Made by a program: the position numbers and the translations under genes | The notes under the pieces: model-generated | Told to the model about the DNA's origin: nothing | Database searches by the model: none | What the model saw: only the letters and a program-made list of their open reading frames with translations | Origin: Stenomitos rutilans HA7619-LM2 | GTDB taxonomy: Bacteria > Cyanobacteriota > Cyanobacteriia > Leptolyngbyales > Leptolyngbyaceae | Direction of reading: 5' to 3' | Assembly (NCBI GenBank): GCA_019358945.1 | Contig: JAHHIE010000013.1 | Coordinates: forward strand, 1-64,000 | Length of the DNA stretch: 64,000 nucleotides | Part shown: positions 5,045 through 56,278 of the stretch, piece by piece | Position numbering within the stretch: the first letter of the stretch is position 1 | Layout of the letters: every line of letters starts with the position of its first letter

Positions 5045-5108
5045 ATTCCCCGCTTGGAAAGGCAGCTTTGGCGATCGTGCGTCAGAGCTGCCTTTCCAAG
5101 CGGGGAAT
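5045..5108. repeat. Perfect 23-bp inverted repeat downstream of apcD
   Basis: The arms at 5045-5067 and 5086-5108 are exact reverse complements (beginning ATTCCCCGCTTGG) with an 18-base spacer that contains GCGATCG. Read on the minus strand it follows the apcD stop by about 55 bases, so it may end that transcript, but only a short AATTTTGG follows. The length and perfection also fit a mobile palindromic repeat. Confidence 0.7.
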
Positions 5109-8573: not shown

Positions 8574-10304
8574 CTAAAACAAGAAGTAGCGTTGTGCCAT
8601 GGGTAGGACGGTAGCGGGTTCGCAGGTAAGGAGTTCTCCGTCAGCGCGGACTTCGTAGGTTTCGGGATCGACGTCCATCTTGGGTGTGGCGTCGTTAAGC
8701 TTCAGGTCTTTTTTCGTGAGCTTGCGAATGCCAGACACTGCGACGGCTTTCTTCTGCAAACCGAGTTGGTCAGGGATGCCTTTTTTAAGGGCAGTTTTGG
8801 AGACAAAGGTAAGAGAGGTTGCCGCGATCGCGCCGCCAAAGCTGGCAAACATGGGACGCATATGGATTGGCTGTGGGGTCGGAATGCTGGCGTTCGCATC
8901 GCCCATTTGTGCCCAACCAATTAAGCCACCTTTGATGACCACTTCGGGCTTCACGCCAAACATTGCGGGTCGCCACAGGCACAAATCTGCTAACTTTCCA
9001 ACTTCAACGGAACCGACGTGGGCAGCAATGCCGTGAGTGATGGCAGGATTGATCGTGTATTTGGCAATGTAGCGTTTGGCGCGGAAGTTGTCGTTGCGGT
9101 TGTGGGATTCAACGGTGCCTTCGGTGTGCGGAGCGAGCCAGCCACGATCGAACTTCATTTTGTGAGCGGTTTGCCAGGTGCGGATGATGACTTCGCCAAT
9201 GCGTCCCATTGCCTGCGAGTCGGACGACAACATGCTGAACGCGCCAATATCGTGCAGGATATCTTCAGCGGCGATCGTCTCACGGCGAATGCGGGACTCA
9301 GCAAAGGCTACATCCTCGGCGATTGCCGGATCAAGGTGATGGCAGACCATCAGCATATCCAGGTGTTCGTCGAGCGTGTTTTGGGTATAGGGACGAGTAG
9401 GGTTTGTGGAGGATGGCAGCACATTGAGTTCGCCACAGATTTTAATAATGTCGGGTGCATGTCCGCCGCCTGCGCCTTCGGTGTGATAGGTGTGGATGAC
9501 ACGATTTTTGAAGGCTGCGATCGTGTCTTCCACAAAGCCTGCTTCGTTTAGCGTATCGGTGTGGATGGCGACCTGCACATCGTAGTCATCGGCAACGCTC
9601 AGGCAGGTGTCGATCGCGGCAGGTGTAGTGCCCCAATCTTCGTGGAGCTTTAGCCCTATCACGCCTGCTTCTACCTGCTCGACCAAACCTCCGGGTTTCG
9701 CACTATTGCCTTTGCCCGTAAAGCCAATGTTGATAGGAAAGGCGTCTGCCGCTTGTAGCATCCGATAAATATTCCAGGGACCGGGAGTACAGGTGGTGGC
9801 GCTGGTGCCTGCGGCTGGGCCTGTACCGCCACCGACGAGCGTAGTAACACCGGACGCGATCGCCACTTCAATTTGTTGGGGGCAGATAAAGTGAATGTGG
9901 GTATCGATGCCGCCAGCCGTGAGAATCATCCCTTCGCCCGCGATCGCCTCGGTACCGGGGCCAATGATGATGTTTACATTGTCTTGAATGTGAGGATTGC
10001 CCGCTTTGCCGATCGCATGAATTTTGCCGCCCTTGAGGCCAATATCGGCTTTGACAATGCCCCACCAGTCGAGAATGAGCGCGTTGGTGATCACCGTATC
10101 AACGGCACCATCGGCATTGGTAATCGGTGACTGACCCATGCCTTCTCGAATGACTTTGCCGCCGCCGAATTTAACCTCATCGCCGTAGGTGGTGTAGTCC
10201 GCCTCGACTTCAATGATTAAATCCGTATCGGCCAAACGGACGCGATCGCCCACGGTAGGGCCATAGGTTTCCGCATAGGCGCGGCGGTTCATTCTGTAGC
10301 TCAT
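8574..10304 (-). CDS. ureC: Urease alpha subunit UreC
   Basis: This is the catalytic urease subunit, 576 residues, which hydrolyses urea to ammonia and carbamate with two nickel ions. The metal ligands are visible: His136 and His138 (GGIDTHIHF), the carbamylated Lys219 (GLKLHEDWG) with His221, the [12 protein letters not shown] histidines near 275, and the flap Cys near 321 (MVCHHLD). The C-terminus MAQRYFLF is standard. Length is slightly above the usual 568-572. The gene stands alone: the structural partners ureA and ureB are not upstream, and no accessory gene (ureD, E, F, G) is in the window, so those must lie elsewhere. A MITE-like element lies about 180 bases upstream. Confidence 0.96.
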
Positions 10305-17106: not shown

Positions 17107-17502
17107 GAGATGGCTTGGTTCCGTTTGTTGATCAAAGGTGCGGTGTAACTGATTAGCGCTGAGCTAGCGCTTTCATTGCGAGTCCAAAGCTAAACCTTTG
17201 GGCAAATCCTCAAAGTGTGGAGAATGTCACCCTATTCTTTCAAAGGATTCAAAATCTGTATATGGGTTCACCTTAAGAGCTGAATGACATCCAACTCTCT
17301 CACGTTCTAAACTGCAATGCTCTTCACTGAAAGACTGAAGCACCGTCGATCGCTAGCAGTCTTTGAAACCCACGAGTGAATCTATTCTGATTCTACATAG
17401 AATCTATACGGTAAGGAGAACAGCCCCTTTGCCCACGTAGTTTGTGAAAGGTGCTCTAGATTGGTTTGCGGCTTTTAGCGGTTGGACTTCAGCGGTTGAA
17501 CA
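17107..17502. other. Divergent intergenic region upstream of glutamate synthase
   Basis: I see no gene. I looked for an NtcA site (GTA-N8-TAC) for the glutamate synthase gene and found no exact match. The right end passes into repeats. Confidence 0.3.
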
Positions 17503-17640
17503 TCAGCGGTCAGCCCGAAATTTAAAGCTAAAAGCTGAAAGCTAAGCCAAAATCATGCATCAGCGGTCAGCCTGGAATTTAAAGCTGAGAGCTGAAAGCT
17601 AAGCCAAAATCATGTTCACAAATCAAATAGGATCGCTATA
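17503..17640 (+). repeat. Tandem leader repeat, copy also found at 35.5 kb
   Basis: Two tandem copies of about 58 bases (17503-17560 and from 17561) share CAGCGGTCAGCC, ATTTAAAGCT and GCTGAAAGCTAAGCC. The second copy continues through CATGTTCACAAATCAAATAG to the start codon of the glycosidase gene. The same ~80-base block, with few changes, ends about 30 bases before pheA at 35485-35565. Confidence 0.85.
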
Positions 17641-19508
17641 TGAACAATTGGTTTAAACAATTTGAGTCTCCGATCGACGATCGCACGGGGCGATCACCGA
17701 TTAATTGCTGGTTCTCCCTTACCGCTAGTTTTCTTTGCGTCAGTTGGTTGAGCCAGCCAGGTGCAATGGTCATTGCCGCACCTCGTGATCAATCATCCCC
17801 AAGCCATCACAACCGTCTCAGTCAAGTGCCATCACTTCCTGTACAGAGTCAGACAGGCACTCAAATTCTATTGAACGGTCGCCCCTTAACTGCTGCCTGG
17901 ACACAATGGACTGCGGGTGGGCCACGCTTTGGCATCACAGACGCAGGACTTTCACAGGCGATCGGGGTTGAGTTACTCAACACAGCCGATGCTACCAGGC
18001 AACCTGTGCAGTGGTTTTCTGATCCCGTTGCCGCTCCACTGAATCTTGGTACACGGCTTACAGGGGCCTTACGATATCTAGACATCACCGATCTGGCGCA
18101 GCGATCAGGCTGGCAATTGCAACCCAACGGTGCCACCCTCCAGATCACTTCACCACCAGCAACCGTGACAGCCGTGCGGCAGGGCAGGCAACCCTGGGGC
18201 GATCGTCTCGTGCTTGAACTCGATCGCGCCACACCCTGGCAAGTCGATCAACAAGATCAGCAGGTTGTTTTGACGCTGGACGCTCAAGTTGCCGCTACGG
18301 TCTTACAAAGCTTTAAATCGGTTATGGGCAATCGGCTCAGCTCTATCAGTATCGAACCTGGTGCAAGCCAGTCGCGCCTTCGGCTGACGCTCTCCAGTGC
18401 TTTGCGTCCGCGCGCGTGGAGCCTACCCAACCCCAACCGACTCATTGTCGATATTCGTCCAGATACACTGGTTGATCGTGACATTCTTTGGGCACCAGGG
18501 CTTCGCTGGCGGACTCAAACACTCACCCTTGGAACCGCACGCTTTCCAGTCATCTGGCTAGCCGTTGATCCCCGACAACCTGGTATTAGTCTGAAACCGA
18601 TTCTGCCAAATCCTGGCACTCTTATCGGCACAGCCCCTCTACTGCGAACCGCTCAACAAGCTCAAGTCGCAGCCGCCATTAACGGTGGGTTTTTCAATCG
18701 TAATAATCAATTACCGCTCGGTGCTGTGCGGCTAGATGGACGCTGGCTCTCTGGTCCCATTTTGGGTCGTGGCGCGATCGCCTGGAATACCACAGGTGAC
18801 ACAAAGTTTGCCCGCCTCACCCTCCAGGAAACGATCGTGACTCCGAACGGACAGCGACTACCGCTTACCCATCTCAACAGTGCCTACGTTCAAGCGGGCA
18901 TCGCCCGGTATACCAGTGATTGGGGTAACAGCTATAGCCCCTTTACAGATAATGAAATTCTGGTTACGGTGCAAAATGACAAAGTGATTAACCAGCAGCC
19001 TGCGGGTAGTGCTGGCAGCAATGCTGTACCAGTTCCGGCAAATGGGTATCTGCTAGCCGTGCGATCGAATCGCAATGCCGCTACAGTGCTCACAGTCGGA
19101 ACAGGGTTGAAACTAGAAACGACTATTACACCACCCGAATTTAGCCGTTACGACCAAATCATTGGCGGTGGGCCGCTGCTGCTCCAAAACCGTCAGATCG
19201 TCTTAGATCCCAAAGCCGAACAATTTAGCAATGCCTTTGCGATTGAGAAAGCAAGCCGTAGCGCGATCGGGCAGACCGCTGATGGCAATCTCCTCATCGC
19301 TGCTGTACACACAAATTTAGACGGAACCGGAGCCACACTGACTGATATGGCTCAAATTATGCAGCAGTTAGGTGCTGTCAATGCGCTCAATCTCGATGGA
19401 GGTAGCTCTACCACGCTATATCTGGGCGGACAACTCCTCGATCGTCTACCTCGGACAGCAGCACGCGTTCATGACGGCATCGGCATCATCGTTCAACCAG
19501 GCCGTTAA
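17640..19508 (+). CDS. Exported phosphodiester glycosidase family protein with AMIN-like region
   Basis: The 622-residue protein has an N-terminal hydrophobic export segment (about 22-47, LTASFLCVSWLSQPGAMVIA) ending near AAP. Next comes a copper-amine-oxidase-N-like motif (ILLNGRPLTAAW), then an AMIN-like strand region (about 175-280; DRLVLELDRATPW, RLRLTLSSALRPRAW, RLIVDIRP) that usually binds envelope polysaccharide. The C-terminal half is the NAGPA-type phosphodiester glycosidase domain, with AAINGGFFN near 345 and NLDGGSSTTLY near 580. It probably acts on cell-wall or exopolysaccharide phosphodiester links in the periplasm. It starts immediately after the duplicated leader repeat, without an obvious Shine-Dalgarno sequence. 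Confidence 0.8.
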   Translation: MNNWFKQFESPIDDRTGRSPINCWFSLTASFLCVSWLSQPGAMVIAAPRDQSSPSHHNRLSQVPSLPVQSQTGTQILLNGRPLTAAWTQWTAGGPRFGITDAGLSQAIGVELLNTADATRQPVQWFSDPVAAPLNLGTRLTGALRYLDITDLAQRSGWQLQPNGATLQITSPPATVTAVRQGRQPWGDRLVLELDRATPWQVDQQDQQVVLTLDAQVAATVLQSFKSVMGNRLSSISIEPGASQSRLRLTLSSALRPRAWSLPNPNRLIVDIRPDTLVDRDILWAPGLRWRTQTLTLGTARFPVIWLAVDPRQPGISLKPILPNPGTLIGTAPLLRTAQQAQVAAAINGGFFNRNNQLPLGAVRLDGRWLSGPILGRGAIAWNTTGDTKFARLTLQETIVTPNGQRLPLTHLNSAYVQAGIARYTSDWGNSYSPFTDNEILVTVQNDKVINQQPAGSAGSNAVPVPANGYLLAVRSNRNAATVLTVGTGLKLETTITPPEFSRYDQIIGGGPLLLQNRQIVLDPKAEQFSNAFAIEKASRSAIGQTADGNLLIAAVHTNLDGTGATLTDMAQIMQQLGAVNALNLDGGSSTTLYLGGQLLDRLPRTAARVHDGIGIIVQPGR

Positions 19509-25321: not shown

Positions 25322-25455
25322 TAGCTAGCAGCGGTCAGCTAGCAGCGGTCAGCCTTGTTTCTGCCTGCTGCTAGCTGACTGCCTGTTATCGAAACTCCAA
25401 AGACGACCATGATACGCTTTTAGCTACATTACTCTGATAGCTGTCAGCTATCGGT
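25321..25455. repeat. Heptamer-type repeats with hairpin between tuf and rpsJ
   Basis: Two direct copies of AGCTAGCAGCGGTC begin at 25323. An inverted pair TCAGCTAGCAGC (25335-25346) and GCTGCTAGCTGA (25367-25378) makes a 12-bp stem with a 20-base loop. More CAGCTATCGG-like units follow near 25445. This is the short tandem repeat (STRR) style seen in filamentous cyanobacteria. It could end or weaken transcription from tuf into rpsJ. Confidence 0.7.
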
Positions 25456-35283: not shown

Positions 35284-35484
35284 GGGTGAGCAACCTAAAA
35301 ATAGGCAGGAGATTTAGATTTCGGTATTCTTTCTAATCTTAAACAAATGTGAAGGAAGTTTTCACATCTTTTTCAGTAGATACACGTTACGTCTTATGAC
35401 AGATCATTCTTGCAGAATTCTGGCTCACAAAGCTTGTTTATCTGAGAATAATGAGAAGAATTGTTGCTGTCAGCGGTTAGCGGT

Positions 35485-35565
35485 CAGCCGTCAGCCTGGA
35501 ATTTAAAGCTGAAAGCTGAAAGCTAACCCAGAAGCATGTTCACAAATCAAATAGGATCACTATTA
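35485..35565 (+). repeat. Second copy of the leader repeat, upstream of pheA
   Basis: This block is nearly identical to 17561-17640, running through CAGCCTGGAATTTAAAGCTG, GCTGAAAGCTAACCC and CATGTTCACAAATCAAATAG. In this copy a short frame (ATG TTG AGT TTC AGG CTG TAA) follows directly at 35565, just before the pheA Shine-Dalgarno sequence. Confidence 0.85.
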
Positions 35566-35597
35566 TGTTGAGTTTCAGGCTGTAAGGAGTAAGCGCT

Positions 35598-36452
35598 TTG
35601 ACAGTATTGATCGCCCATTTAGGTCCCTCTGGCACCCATACCGAAGCCGCCGCCCTCCAATATGCCGCCTGGTTTACTCAAACCAGTGGTCAAACAACCC
35701 AGTTGCGTCCCTATCCCAGCATTGCGCTGTCTTTACGTGCCGTTGCTGAAGGAGACGTGACTGTTGCCGTTGTGCCAGTCGAAAACTCTACCGAAGGCAG
35801 CGTTGCCATGACGTTGGATGGCTTGTGGCAGATTGGTAGTCTACAAATTCAGTCAGCGTTGGTTTTACCCATTCGACATGCGCTTTTGTCTTACGCCATC
35901 ACCACCGAAACGATCGAGACGGTTTACTCTCATCCGCAGGCGTTAGCTCAATGTCAGGGTTGGCTCGAAACCTTTTTGCCTAACGCCAAGTTGATTCCCA
36001 TTAATTCGACTACTGAAGCGCTGCAATATCTGGCAGAAGACCCCACGATCGCAGCAATTTCTTCCCAACGTGCCGCTCAACTCTACAACTTACCGACTTT
36101 GAGCGAGGCAATCAATGACAACCCCGATAACAGCACCCGCTTCTGGGTTCTCAGCCAGCAACCGTCTCCTGGCGGTCACCACACATCTCTAGCCTTCACC
36201 GTGCATGATCTACCCGGCTCTTTAGTCAAACCACTGCAAGTTTTTGCCAGTCGGGGGATGAATCTGAGCCATATTGAATCTCGCCCCGCTAAGCGATCGC
36301 TCGGTGACTACATGTTTTTTATTGATTTGGAAGCCGATGCCCGTACACCTGCGGTACAAGAGACCTTAGCAGAACTCGCTGAAAGTACCGAAACGCTGAA
36401 AGTGTTTGGTAGCTATGACGTTTTGCTAACGGAGGAGAGGGGTGAGGAGTGA
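35598..36452 (+). CDS. pheA: Prephenate dehydratase
   Basis: This 284-residue enzyme converts prephenate to phenylpyruvate for phenylalanine synthesis. It starts with TTG at 35598; AAGGAG 8 bases before supports that. The catalytic domain includes VIVPVEN-like PVENSTEGSVAMTLD (about 60) and TRFWVLSQQ at its end (the conserved Thr-Arg-Phe). The C-terminal ACT domain has LPGSLVKPLQVFASRGMNLSHIESRPAKRS, with the Glu-Ser-Arg-Pro phenylalanine-binding motif, so feedback inhibition is expected. There is no chorismate mutase domain. The last few codons (EERGEE) come from a GGAGAGGGGTGAGGAG-type repeat, so the natural C-terminus was probably replaced. Confidence 0.93.
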   Translation: MTVLIAHLGPSGTHTEAAALQYAAWFTQTSGQTTQLRPYPSIALSLRAVAEGDVTVAVVPVENSTEGSVAMTLDGLWQIGSLQIQSALVLPIRHALLSYAITTETIETVYSHPQALAQCQGWLETFLPNAKLIPINSTTEALQYLAEDPTIAAISSQRAAQLYNLPTLSEAINDNPDNSTRFWVLSQQPSPGGHHTSLAFTVHDLPGSLVKPLQVFASRGMNLSHIESRPAKRSLGDYMFFIDLEADARTPAVQETLAELAESTETLKVFGSYDVLLTEERGEE

Positions 36453-48826: not shown

Positions 48827-49888
48827 ATGAGTGAGTTTAACAACAATGAGCAAGCAGACGGCTATGGACTCATTCCCGCCTCTCCACCTGGCTTCCGCTC
48901 AGGCTTTGTGGGTATTATCGGTCGCCCAAATGTGGGCAAATCTACCCTCATGAATTATTTGGTGGGGCAGAAAATCGCTATCACATCGCCGATCGCGCAA
49001 ACAACGCGCAATCGGCTGCGGGGCATTCTGACCACGCCAACTGCCCAACTCATCTTTGTTGATACACCCGGTATTCACAAGCCCCATCACGAATTAGGCA
49101 AGGTGCTTGTTAAGAATGCGCAGGTTGCCATTCAGTCAGTGGATGTTTTGCTGTTCGTCGTTGATGGCTCGGTGGCAGCGGGTGGGGGCGATCGCTTCAT
49201 TGCCAACTTGCTCACCCATTGTCAAACACCCGTTATTTTAGGCATCAATAAGGCGGATCAGCAGGCTGGGCTGGGGGAGGCCGGGGAGGCCAGGGAAGCA
49301 GGGGAGGCAGAGGAAGCAGAGGGAGACGCACCCCTCACTCCACACTCCACACTCCACACTCCACACTCCACATCCCACATCCCACATCCCCTCGATCGCA
49401 CCTACCACGAACTTGCTACTAGTCAGCAATGGCAGGTTGCTAAGTTTTCAGCACTGACTGGAGACGGCGTAGAGGCGCTACAGGAGCAACTTATTCAGTC
49501 TTTGGAACCAGGGCCTTACTACTACCCACCCGATCTAGTTACGGATCAGCCAGAGCGGTTCATTATGGGAGAACTGATTCGAGAGCAGGTGCTGTTGTTG
49601 ACTCGTGAGGAAGTACCGCACTCAACGGCGATCGGCATTGATCGCGTGGAAGAAGAGCCAGCTATTACCCGCATTCTGGCGACTATTTATATTGAGCGTC
49701 CGTCCCAAAAAGGCATTCTTATTGGTAAGGGAGGCGAAATGCTTAAAGCGATCGGATCTGCTGCGCGTCAACAAATTCAGAAGCTAGTGGCAGGCAAGGT
49801 CTACCTGGAGTTGTTTGTTAAAGTGCAGCCTAAATGGCGACAGTCCAGCGCTCGGCTCGCTGAATTAGGATATCGGGTAGAAGAATAG
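48827..49888 (+). CDS. era: GTPase Era with an in-frame repeat insertion
   Basis: Era is the essential GTPase that assists 30S maturation by binding the 3' end of 16S rRNA. The protein has 353 residues instead of about 300. G1 is GRPNVGKSTLMNYLVG, G3 DTPG, G4 NKAD (141-144) and G5 SALTG. The C-terminal KH domain shows KGILIGKGGEMLKAIGSAARQQI. Between G4 and G5 lie about 42 extra residues (about 147-188), an EAGEAxEAGEA block followed by a TPHSTLHTPHSTSH block, encoded by repeat DNA. About 20 residues also precede the G-domain at the N-terminus. The insert sits in a surface loop next to the nucleotide site, so the protein may still work. Confidence 0.93.
   Translation: MSEFNNNEQADGYGLIPASPPGFRSGFVGIIGRPNVGKSTLMNYLVGQKIAITSPIAQTTRNRLRGILTTPTAQLIFVDTPGIHKPHHELGKVLVKNAQVAIQSVDVLLFVVDGSVAAGGGDRFIANLLTHCQTPVILGINKADQQAGLGEAGEAREAGEAEEAEGDAPLTPHSTLHTPHSTSHIPHPLDRTYHELATSQQWQVAKFSALTGDGVEALQEQLIQSLEPGPYYYPPDLVTDQPERFIMGELIREQVLLLTREEVPHSTAIGIDRVEEEPAITRILATIYIERPSQKGILIGKGGEMLKAIGSAARQQIQKLVAGKVYLELFVKVQPKWRQSSARLAELGYRVEE
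49265..49390 (+). repeat. Low-complexity repeat inserted in era
   Basis: Purine-rich units (GGGGGAGGCC, GGGGAGGCAGAGGAAGCAG) are followed by CACTCCACACTCCACACTCC and CATCCCACATCCC. The length of 126 bases keeps the frame. The same purine-rich to pyrimidine-rich layout occurs between genes at 31022-31135. Confidence 0.8.
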
Positions 49889-55829: not shown

Positions 55830-56278
55830 CTATCCAGTGCCATAAAATTCATTCAAGATAGTGCGAATCTCATTCACATTAATACCATCTCTGTCTGATT
55901 TTGAGTAGATCGTTAAGAGCAGTACGTTTATAGGCGATTCAACTTGATAGATAGCGATCCTATTTGGATTGTGAGAAAGGATTCCACTGGAATCCTTTCT
56001 CACAAAGCCTCTCAATCTCACAAATGATTTAGGATTGCTAGATTAGGCGATAATCAGCGCTTTTACCTTTCTGGATATTGCTGTTCCGAACTCTGACCTT
56101 GAAGATGAGGTAGCCGTCACCGATCCCGGAGAGACGATCGCCGACAAAGTTTTTAATCTTTAACTCATCAATCACAGGCTGACTATCAGCACGGATACTA
56201 CGATAGCGCTTTGACGAGATCCGCAACTCCTGCTGAAACTCAGGAGTAAGCTCGATTTGAATTTCAGGCTAGAGTCCT
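55830..56278 (-). pseudogene. RelE/ParE-type toxin split by an 87-bp MITE
   Basis: The upstream half (to 56038) reads PEIQIELTPEFQQELRISSK, then GDGYLIFKVRVRNSNIQKGK and SADYRLI. The downstream half (from about 55948) reads IYQVESPINVLLLTIYSKSD and NEIRTILNEFYG, with stop at 55830. Removing 55953-56039 and one copy of the flanking AGAT restores YRLIYQVES without a break, a classic RelE/ParE toxin core. The start is also damaged: a TAG stands where an ATG before PEIQ is expected. The toxin cannot be made. Confidence 0.8.
55953..56039. mobile_element. 87-bp MITE in a toxin gene
   Basis: The element starts AGCGATCCTATTTGGATTGT and ends as the inverted form of AGCAATCCTAAATCATTTGT; the 24-base terminal repeats match at 18 positions. 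It is flanked by AGAT on both sides (55949-55952 and 56040-56043), or TAGAT if the boundary is moved by one base. Inside is a 14-bp hairpin (TGAGAAAGGATTCC with its complement, 3-base loop). It has no coding capacity, so it was moved by a transposase encoded elsewhere. Confidence 0.85.

Follow-up and report, generated by a model that had tools for sequence, protein, structure and literature searches.

An 80-base block before two unrelated genes of Stenomitos rutilans is very probably the right part of an IS630-type mini-transposon

Introduction

In a stretch of 64,000 nucleotides from the cyanobacterium Stenomitos rutilans HA7619-LM2 (contig JAHHIE010000013.1, positions 1 to 64,000; hereafter the window), nearly the same block of about 80 bases stands before two unrelated genes, one encoding a phosphodiester glycosidase and the other being pheA. 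This arrangement raises the question of whether the block ties the two genes to one control, as a common promoter or translation signal, or whether it is a mobile repeat that prefers gene starts, both of which had been put forward in the original prediction.

Results

The block is a real repeat that abuts one gene and lies upstream of the other

A repeat search of the window identified a three-member family on the forward strand: taking 17560-17639 as the reference, the copy at 35484-35563 was 93% identical over 80 nt and the one at 17503-17582 was 69% identical. The predicted repeat of about 80 bases at two unrelated genes is thus present, and so is the predicted tandem duplication of its first part at 17.5 kb, an incomplete copy (17503-17559; match to a sequence model of the repeat at 17502-17557, model positions 7-75) that lacks the 3' end and its terminal repeat. 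The last 22 nt of the block had three matches in the window at up to 3 mismatches, the third at 55951-55972 on the minus strand, and none in 100 dinucleotide shuffles.

As anticipated, the block directly abuts the glycosidase gene (17640..19508, forward strand; NAGPA and AMIN domains by domain search), since it ends at 17639 and the ATG occupies 17640-17642. The second block is indeed upstream of pheA, but not adjacent to it as had been thought: the frame from the ATG directly behind it (35565) runs for 6 codons before a stop, and 34 nt separate the block from the gene, because the pheA frame opens at TTG 35598 and the six congeners compared align from there. This gene (35598..36452, forward strand) encodes a prephenate dehydratase with PDT and ACT domains, its TTG start standing behind its own AAGGAG at 35584-35589.

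The block belongs to a family of MITEs with IS630-type ends

Searching the S. rutilans genome with the 23-nt end of the block, CACAAATCAAATAGGATNNCTAT, at up to 3 mismatches gave 33 places (18 forward and 15 reverse), against 0 for a reversed control; 29 of the 58 genomes searched, S. rutilans included, contained matches, and the reversed control matched once (in G056). Two kinds of element, which we call type A and type B, carry this kind of end. The type-A element, a palindrome of 91 nt (ATAGCAGTCCTAAATCATTTGTGAG...CTCACAATCCAAATAGGATCGCTAT), was found at 11 of 30 fetched S. rutilans loci (leaving aside L026, which is the opposite end of the L015 element); a left end lies 68 nt upstream at all 11, and the flanks read T-element-A at 10 of them. 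One palindromic type-A MITE of 91 nt lies in the window at 55951-56041 on the minus strand, as identified by tail search, locus comparison and folding, and its left flank deviates from the T/A rule.

In type B, a left end resembling TATAGCAGTCCTAAAGCATTCGTGAAAAGC is followed by a core of the heptads CAGCGGT and AGCTGAA, and the tail of the block forms the right end. The MITE to which the shared block belongs has IS630-type ends, TATAGCAGTCC...GGATCGCTATA. The left end was present in 9 of 13 copies examined outside the window, 7 of these 13 having been chosen since their left end had already been seen, and the elements measured 140-177 bp. A sequence-only model of type B gave at least 60 matches in the S. 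rutilans genome, many of which were heptads lacking the tail, and at least 92, 54, 18, 2, 1 and 1 matches in the congeners G002, G001, G003, G005, G006 and G004, respectively; all of these are lower bounds because 150 candidates were scored per genome, out of about 3600 in S. rutilans. The family is therefore both short and multicopy by its 33 end places, its model matches and its nine copies of 140-177 bp, and it has terminal inverted repeats at the 11 type-A loci and in 9 of the 13 type-B copies. Its ends read TATAGC...GCTATA, such that a duplicated TA is indistinguishable from a longer end; at the corresponding point before pheA, congeners carry TTGCTATGG.

One might instead regard the heptads as the actual repeat and the transposon end as a chance neighbour, since heptads (CAGCGGTCAGC) stand without any end at 25329-25354 and many model matches are partial. 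We consider this very improbable, given that the order of heptads, spacer and end is kept in all 13 aligned type-B copies and that an inverted left end lies beyond the heptads in 9 of the 13 copies outside the window. Altogether, we are highly confident that what looked like an 80-base leader belongs to a non-autonomous mini-transposon (MITE) with ends of the IS630/Tc1-mariner type, of which it represents the right-hand part, and the reading of the block as a mobile repeat is borne out by the 33 end places and by its absence from both sites in the congeners compared.

The two window copies appear truncated on their left side

At the glycosidase, the right part of a type-B MITE occupies 17560..17640 on the forward strand (model match 82.7 bits), with the right terminal repeat CACAAATCAAATAGGATCGCTAT and the target TA/T at the ATG junction in 17617..17641, the latter located by sequence and by the genome-wide end search. 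Upstream of pheA, it occupies 35471..35563 on the same strand (model match 35478-35563, 83.9 bits) with its right terminal repeat CACAAATCAAATAGGATCACTAT at 35541..35563. The nearest approach to a left end at these two copies had 10 and 9 mismatches out of 28, compared to 0-6 in the nine copies that have one. Local alignments of the two loci to six intact left arms scored 18 and 21; of 300 random segments taken from the window, 97 and 31 did as well. The alignments are thus no better than chance, and we claim no left-arm remnant. Since both copies are without a recognisable left end, neither is a complete MITE; lacking paired terminal repeats, they are best described as truncated derivatives, and both appear to have lost their left arm.

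An IS630-type transposase is the likely engine of the family

The edge of contig C47 of the S. rutilans assembly (fragment L028) contains a 60-aa open frame, NDPKQNPIEDIWLQAK..., read from the DNA, which runs into CACAACTCATTTAGGATCGCTATA. This fragment corresponds to an IS630-type C-terminus and shares 86% and 85% identity with proteins from G017 and G019, two genomes with complete elements of about 1.1 kb that have paired ATAGCAATCC-type ends flanked by T. The same kind of end is thus common to the MITE and to insertion sequences, namely the S. rutilans fragment and the complete elements L104, L105, L118 and L119 of relatives. A complete relative in G055 matched the IS630 family transposase model NF033545 of NCBIfam with 168.5 bits (cut-off 100) and displayed DDE_3 and HTH_33 domains; the G019 copy, which is in two frames, scored 65.8 and 83.4 bits, under the cut-off, and the 60-aa fragment alone had no match to this family or to domain profiles. 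The S. rutilans assembly yielded no complete element with such ends: the DNA of the fragment matched only itself, and the fetched stretches of the 11 S. rutilans DDE_3 loci had no paired ends, with only two single matches at 3 mismatches each. Judging from these sequences, an IS630 transposase of the C47-fragment type is likely to have been the engine of the MITE family.

At the glycosidase gene, the element end may have replaced the native start region

The block was absent from the glycosidase locus of all five congeners compared (G001, G002, G003, G005 and G006). The S. rutilans sequence follows that of G006 up to 17435 and rejoins it at 17639 (TATGAAC), without homology over 17436-17638; in place of 224 nt in G006 it has 203 nt, in which 17503-17638 is repeat and 17436..17502 is lineage-specific DNA on the same strand with no recognisable left arm, including heptads of the CAGCGGTT type at 17476-17502 that belong to the heptad repeat family. 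In G006, G005 and G003, the glycosidase frame continues five codons further upstream to a GTG (V-L-K-R-A, V-I-R-R-A and V-I-R-R-D, respectively), G002 has an ATG nearby in place of the GTG, and G001 is alignable only from further inside the gene. Congener alignments of these predicted starts indicate that the GTG was probably the older start of the glycosidase. The event that brought the element would then also have deleted the 224 nt upstream region, as found in its G006 version, including this probable GTG start. With these 224 nt gone, the ATG at the TA of GC-TATG would have taken over as initiation codon, with the element end probably also providing the ribosome site (AGGATCGCTATATG; putative AGGA at 17629..17632, forward strand, 7 nt before ATG 17640).

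No promoter-like site was detected in the glycosidase block, the sole such site lying outside it at 17284-17313 (1.1 in shuffles), and the tandem copies folded no better than shuffles (z -0.8).

At the pheA gene, the element stands between conserved upstream DNA and an intact native start

The block was also missing at pheA in all six congeners compared. In G001, G002, G004, G005 and G006, the alignment runs through the insertion point (TTGCTATGGTGAG-like) with no insert; G003 is also without the block, its upstream region being too diverged for a good alignment. The S. rutilans sequence breaks off at TTGCT on the left of the block and is taken up again on its right with TATGTTGAG, one T beyond the plain TA rule. 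The element would set the AAGGAG of pheA apart from a conserved upstream region. It may also offer a putative promoter, TTCACA-16-TATTAT, made of the element end and the bases next to it (35539..35566, forward strand), which matches the consensus at 10 of 12 positions and ranks first among four sites in 421 bases (0.5 in shuffles). The heptad core of this copy (35475..35528, forward strand) is hairpin-capable, with a z of -4.2 when folded as a DNA strand.

For both proteins, dN/dS between S. rutilans and G006 was low and inside the spread of other pairs, these values also spanning the time before insertion: the glycosidase had 0.109 (0.087-0.136 in the other pairs) and pheA had 0.076 (0.061-0.102 in the others, with one pair saturated). 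Unique amino-acid changes numbered 11 on the S. rutilans branch versus 16 in G006 for the glycosidase, and 7 versus 4 for pheA.

A common control of the two genes is not supported

Could the block nevertheless be a shared regulatory leader, whether a promoter, a riboswitch or a protein site, that puts the glycosidase and pheA under one control? The two copies do lie on the same strand and on the same side of both genes with 93% identity, and the pheA copy has both the hairpin and the promoter-like site matching at 10 of 12 positions. However, 33 places in the genome carry the end, the glycosidase copy has neither a promoter-like site nor a significant fold (z -0.8), and the distance to the start codon differs between the genes, being 0 nt in one case and 34 nt in the other. 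The block is not kept at the orthologous loci either, being absent from the six congeners at pheA and the five at the glycosidase, and it had no Rfam match at gathering score that would indicate a known structured RNA. We thus consider a shared leader of this kind extremely improbable, and the idea of one control over two unrelated genes found no support: the end does have Shine-Dalgarno-like and promoter-like letters, but their arrangement differs between the genes. Any control would thus be local and different at each of the two genes; such effects on expression are what we infer from the sequence of the element ends at both genes. The sole Rfam match in the window was RF02514 (5_ureB_sRNA) at 9863-10153 on the forward strand, with 114.7 bits for a gathering score of 40.

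Preference of the right ends for gene starts is weak at most

The mobile repeat had also been suspected of preferring gene starts. In the S. rutilans genome, 15 of 23 right ends faced a gene start within 120 nt, where 9.9 were expected from the same intergenic regions if a 55-nt left arm is assumed (P 0.008, uncorrected although several gene-start tests were made). These 23 right ends are the 25 model matches of at least 39.5 bits, out of the 60 obtained, minus L142 and L146, which are without a right end. Among random intergenic TA sites in 464 kb of the same genome, 25% face a start within 120 nt; at any distance, 16 of the 23 right ends faced a start, versus 58% of random intergenic TA. Type A served as a comparison group, with 3 of 9 loci (9 of the 11 being used) within 120 nt of a start. 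Gene starts came from home-made calls with a simple hexamer model, and the two gene callers used were unlike in training set, threshold and rules, such that some rows changed between them.

In 3 of the 23 cases, the junction fell at the start codon itself: at the glycosidase, at a gene for an 84-aa protein and at a response regulator gene. The 84-aa protein has the same start in all 7 searched genomes of the genus, the element being in the S. rutilans genome only. The response-regulator junction may be old or have a different origin, because similar heptads and GCTAATCGC precede the ATG in four congeners as well; in these four (L276, L278, L279 and L281), GATAATAATAGCTGAAAGCTGATG...GCTAATCGC is kept within about 60 bases upstream of the ATG.

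A wider sample comprised 79 junctions in which the end is followed by TATG; 6 came from 42 genomes of the order and 73 from a genome contig collection, the two sets having at least two loci in common and some junctions being homologous. The junction of G002 agrees over 40 bases with that of a Tildeniella nuda record (L198 in L235; Oculatellaceae), and 25 residues read from it are identical in the two, although a longer comparison at guessed coordinates gave no match. Fifteen of the 79 fell at called gene starts, compared to 98 of 764 intergenic TATG controls (12.8%) taken from the 73 loci and to 77 of 440 (17.5%) from the S. rutilans genome. An ORF of at least 100 aa followed 14 of the 79 junctions, versus 18.7% and 26.4% of first-start intergenic TATG. 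An apparent 2.4-fold enrichment at start codons (14 of 79 versus 7.3% of 1186 first-start TATG, a loose control) disappeared against the intergenic controls and was discarded. The preference for gene starts is thus weak at most in the S. rutilans genome, and the wider sample gives no clear excess. Five of the 73 contig stretches with the end followed by TATG (L208, L223, L226, L246 and L272) are filed under Competibacteraceae, Gracilibacteria, Proteobacteria, Helicobacteraceae and Chloroflexales, respectively, which may reflect chance, transfer or contamination.

These numbers bear on a more ambitious view, in which the right end would be an exapted, ready-made initiation cassette (AGGA, seven bases and TA/TG, with a TTCACA-16-TATA promoter skeleton) whose insertions replace native starts without silencing the gene, gene-facing copies being kept because they drive those genes. 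The AGGA placed 7 nt before TA/TG, the three junctions at start codons and the 15 of 23 right ends near starts speak for it. The wider sample speaks against it with both its called starts and its ORFs, as do orientation taken alone (16 of 23 versus 58%) and the possibility that one of the three start-codon junctions is old and unrelated to the end. We therefore regard such a cassette as unlikely, and prefer to see the two blocks as truncated MITE derivatives.

Discussion

The shared control suspected for these two genes is explained here as transposon debris that arrived after the split from the congeners compared. By their sequence, the two blocks are best assigned to a family of MITEs with IS630-type ends, as truncated members of it. 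Among the papers searched, the end sequence AGGATTGCTATA had a sole match, to one unrelated by its title.

MITEs with promoter activity are already known (Correia and others; PMC10969869), as are cyanobacterial MITEs (PMC3542288). According to the former review, the Correia elements of Neisseria are MITEs located upstream of genes, and their promoter activity was found by experiment (PMC10969869); the present MITE shares with them the location and a promoter-like sequence, but the latter is known by consensus matches only. ISY100, an IS630/Tc1-mariner element of Synechocystis PCC 6803, is described as having imperfect inverted ends of 24 bp and inserting almost exclusively at TA, which it duplicates (PMC2170065). 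The present MITE resembles it by its short imperfect inverted ends and its apparent insertion at TA, the ends being likened by description rather than by sequence. ISY100 is however 947 bp long and encodes its own transposase, whereas the present MITE is non-coding and measures 140-177 bp; mini-elements with 30 bp of each ISY100 end are reported to transpose (PMC2170065). In Anabaena sp. 90, MITEs of 77-541 bp are reported, 132 of 147 being intergenic; that genome has no insertion sequence with matching ends, and the MITEs are of type II (PMC3542288). Both families are cyanobacterial, but in S. rutilans an IS630-type fragment with a matching end does exist.

Nezha, attributed to Zhou et al. 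2008, is reportedly another non-autonomous cyanobacterial MITE, to which the present element may be likened by description and not by end sequence.

The glycosidase offers a concrete case in which a transposon end appears to have replaced a start region, probably including the ribosome site, while the protein still looks constrained. Mobile DNA remodelling gene starts is an ordinary phenomenon, of which this is a neat example, and it is also a warning for annotation, as ends of this sort can be mistaken for promoters or leaders when cyanobacterial genomes are annotated.

Other repeats were seen elsewhere in the window: overlapping 9-base units of the GGAAGCAGG type at 49276-49331, and an inverted repeat at 5045-5108 with 29-nt arms that are 93% complementary and separated by 6 nt.
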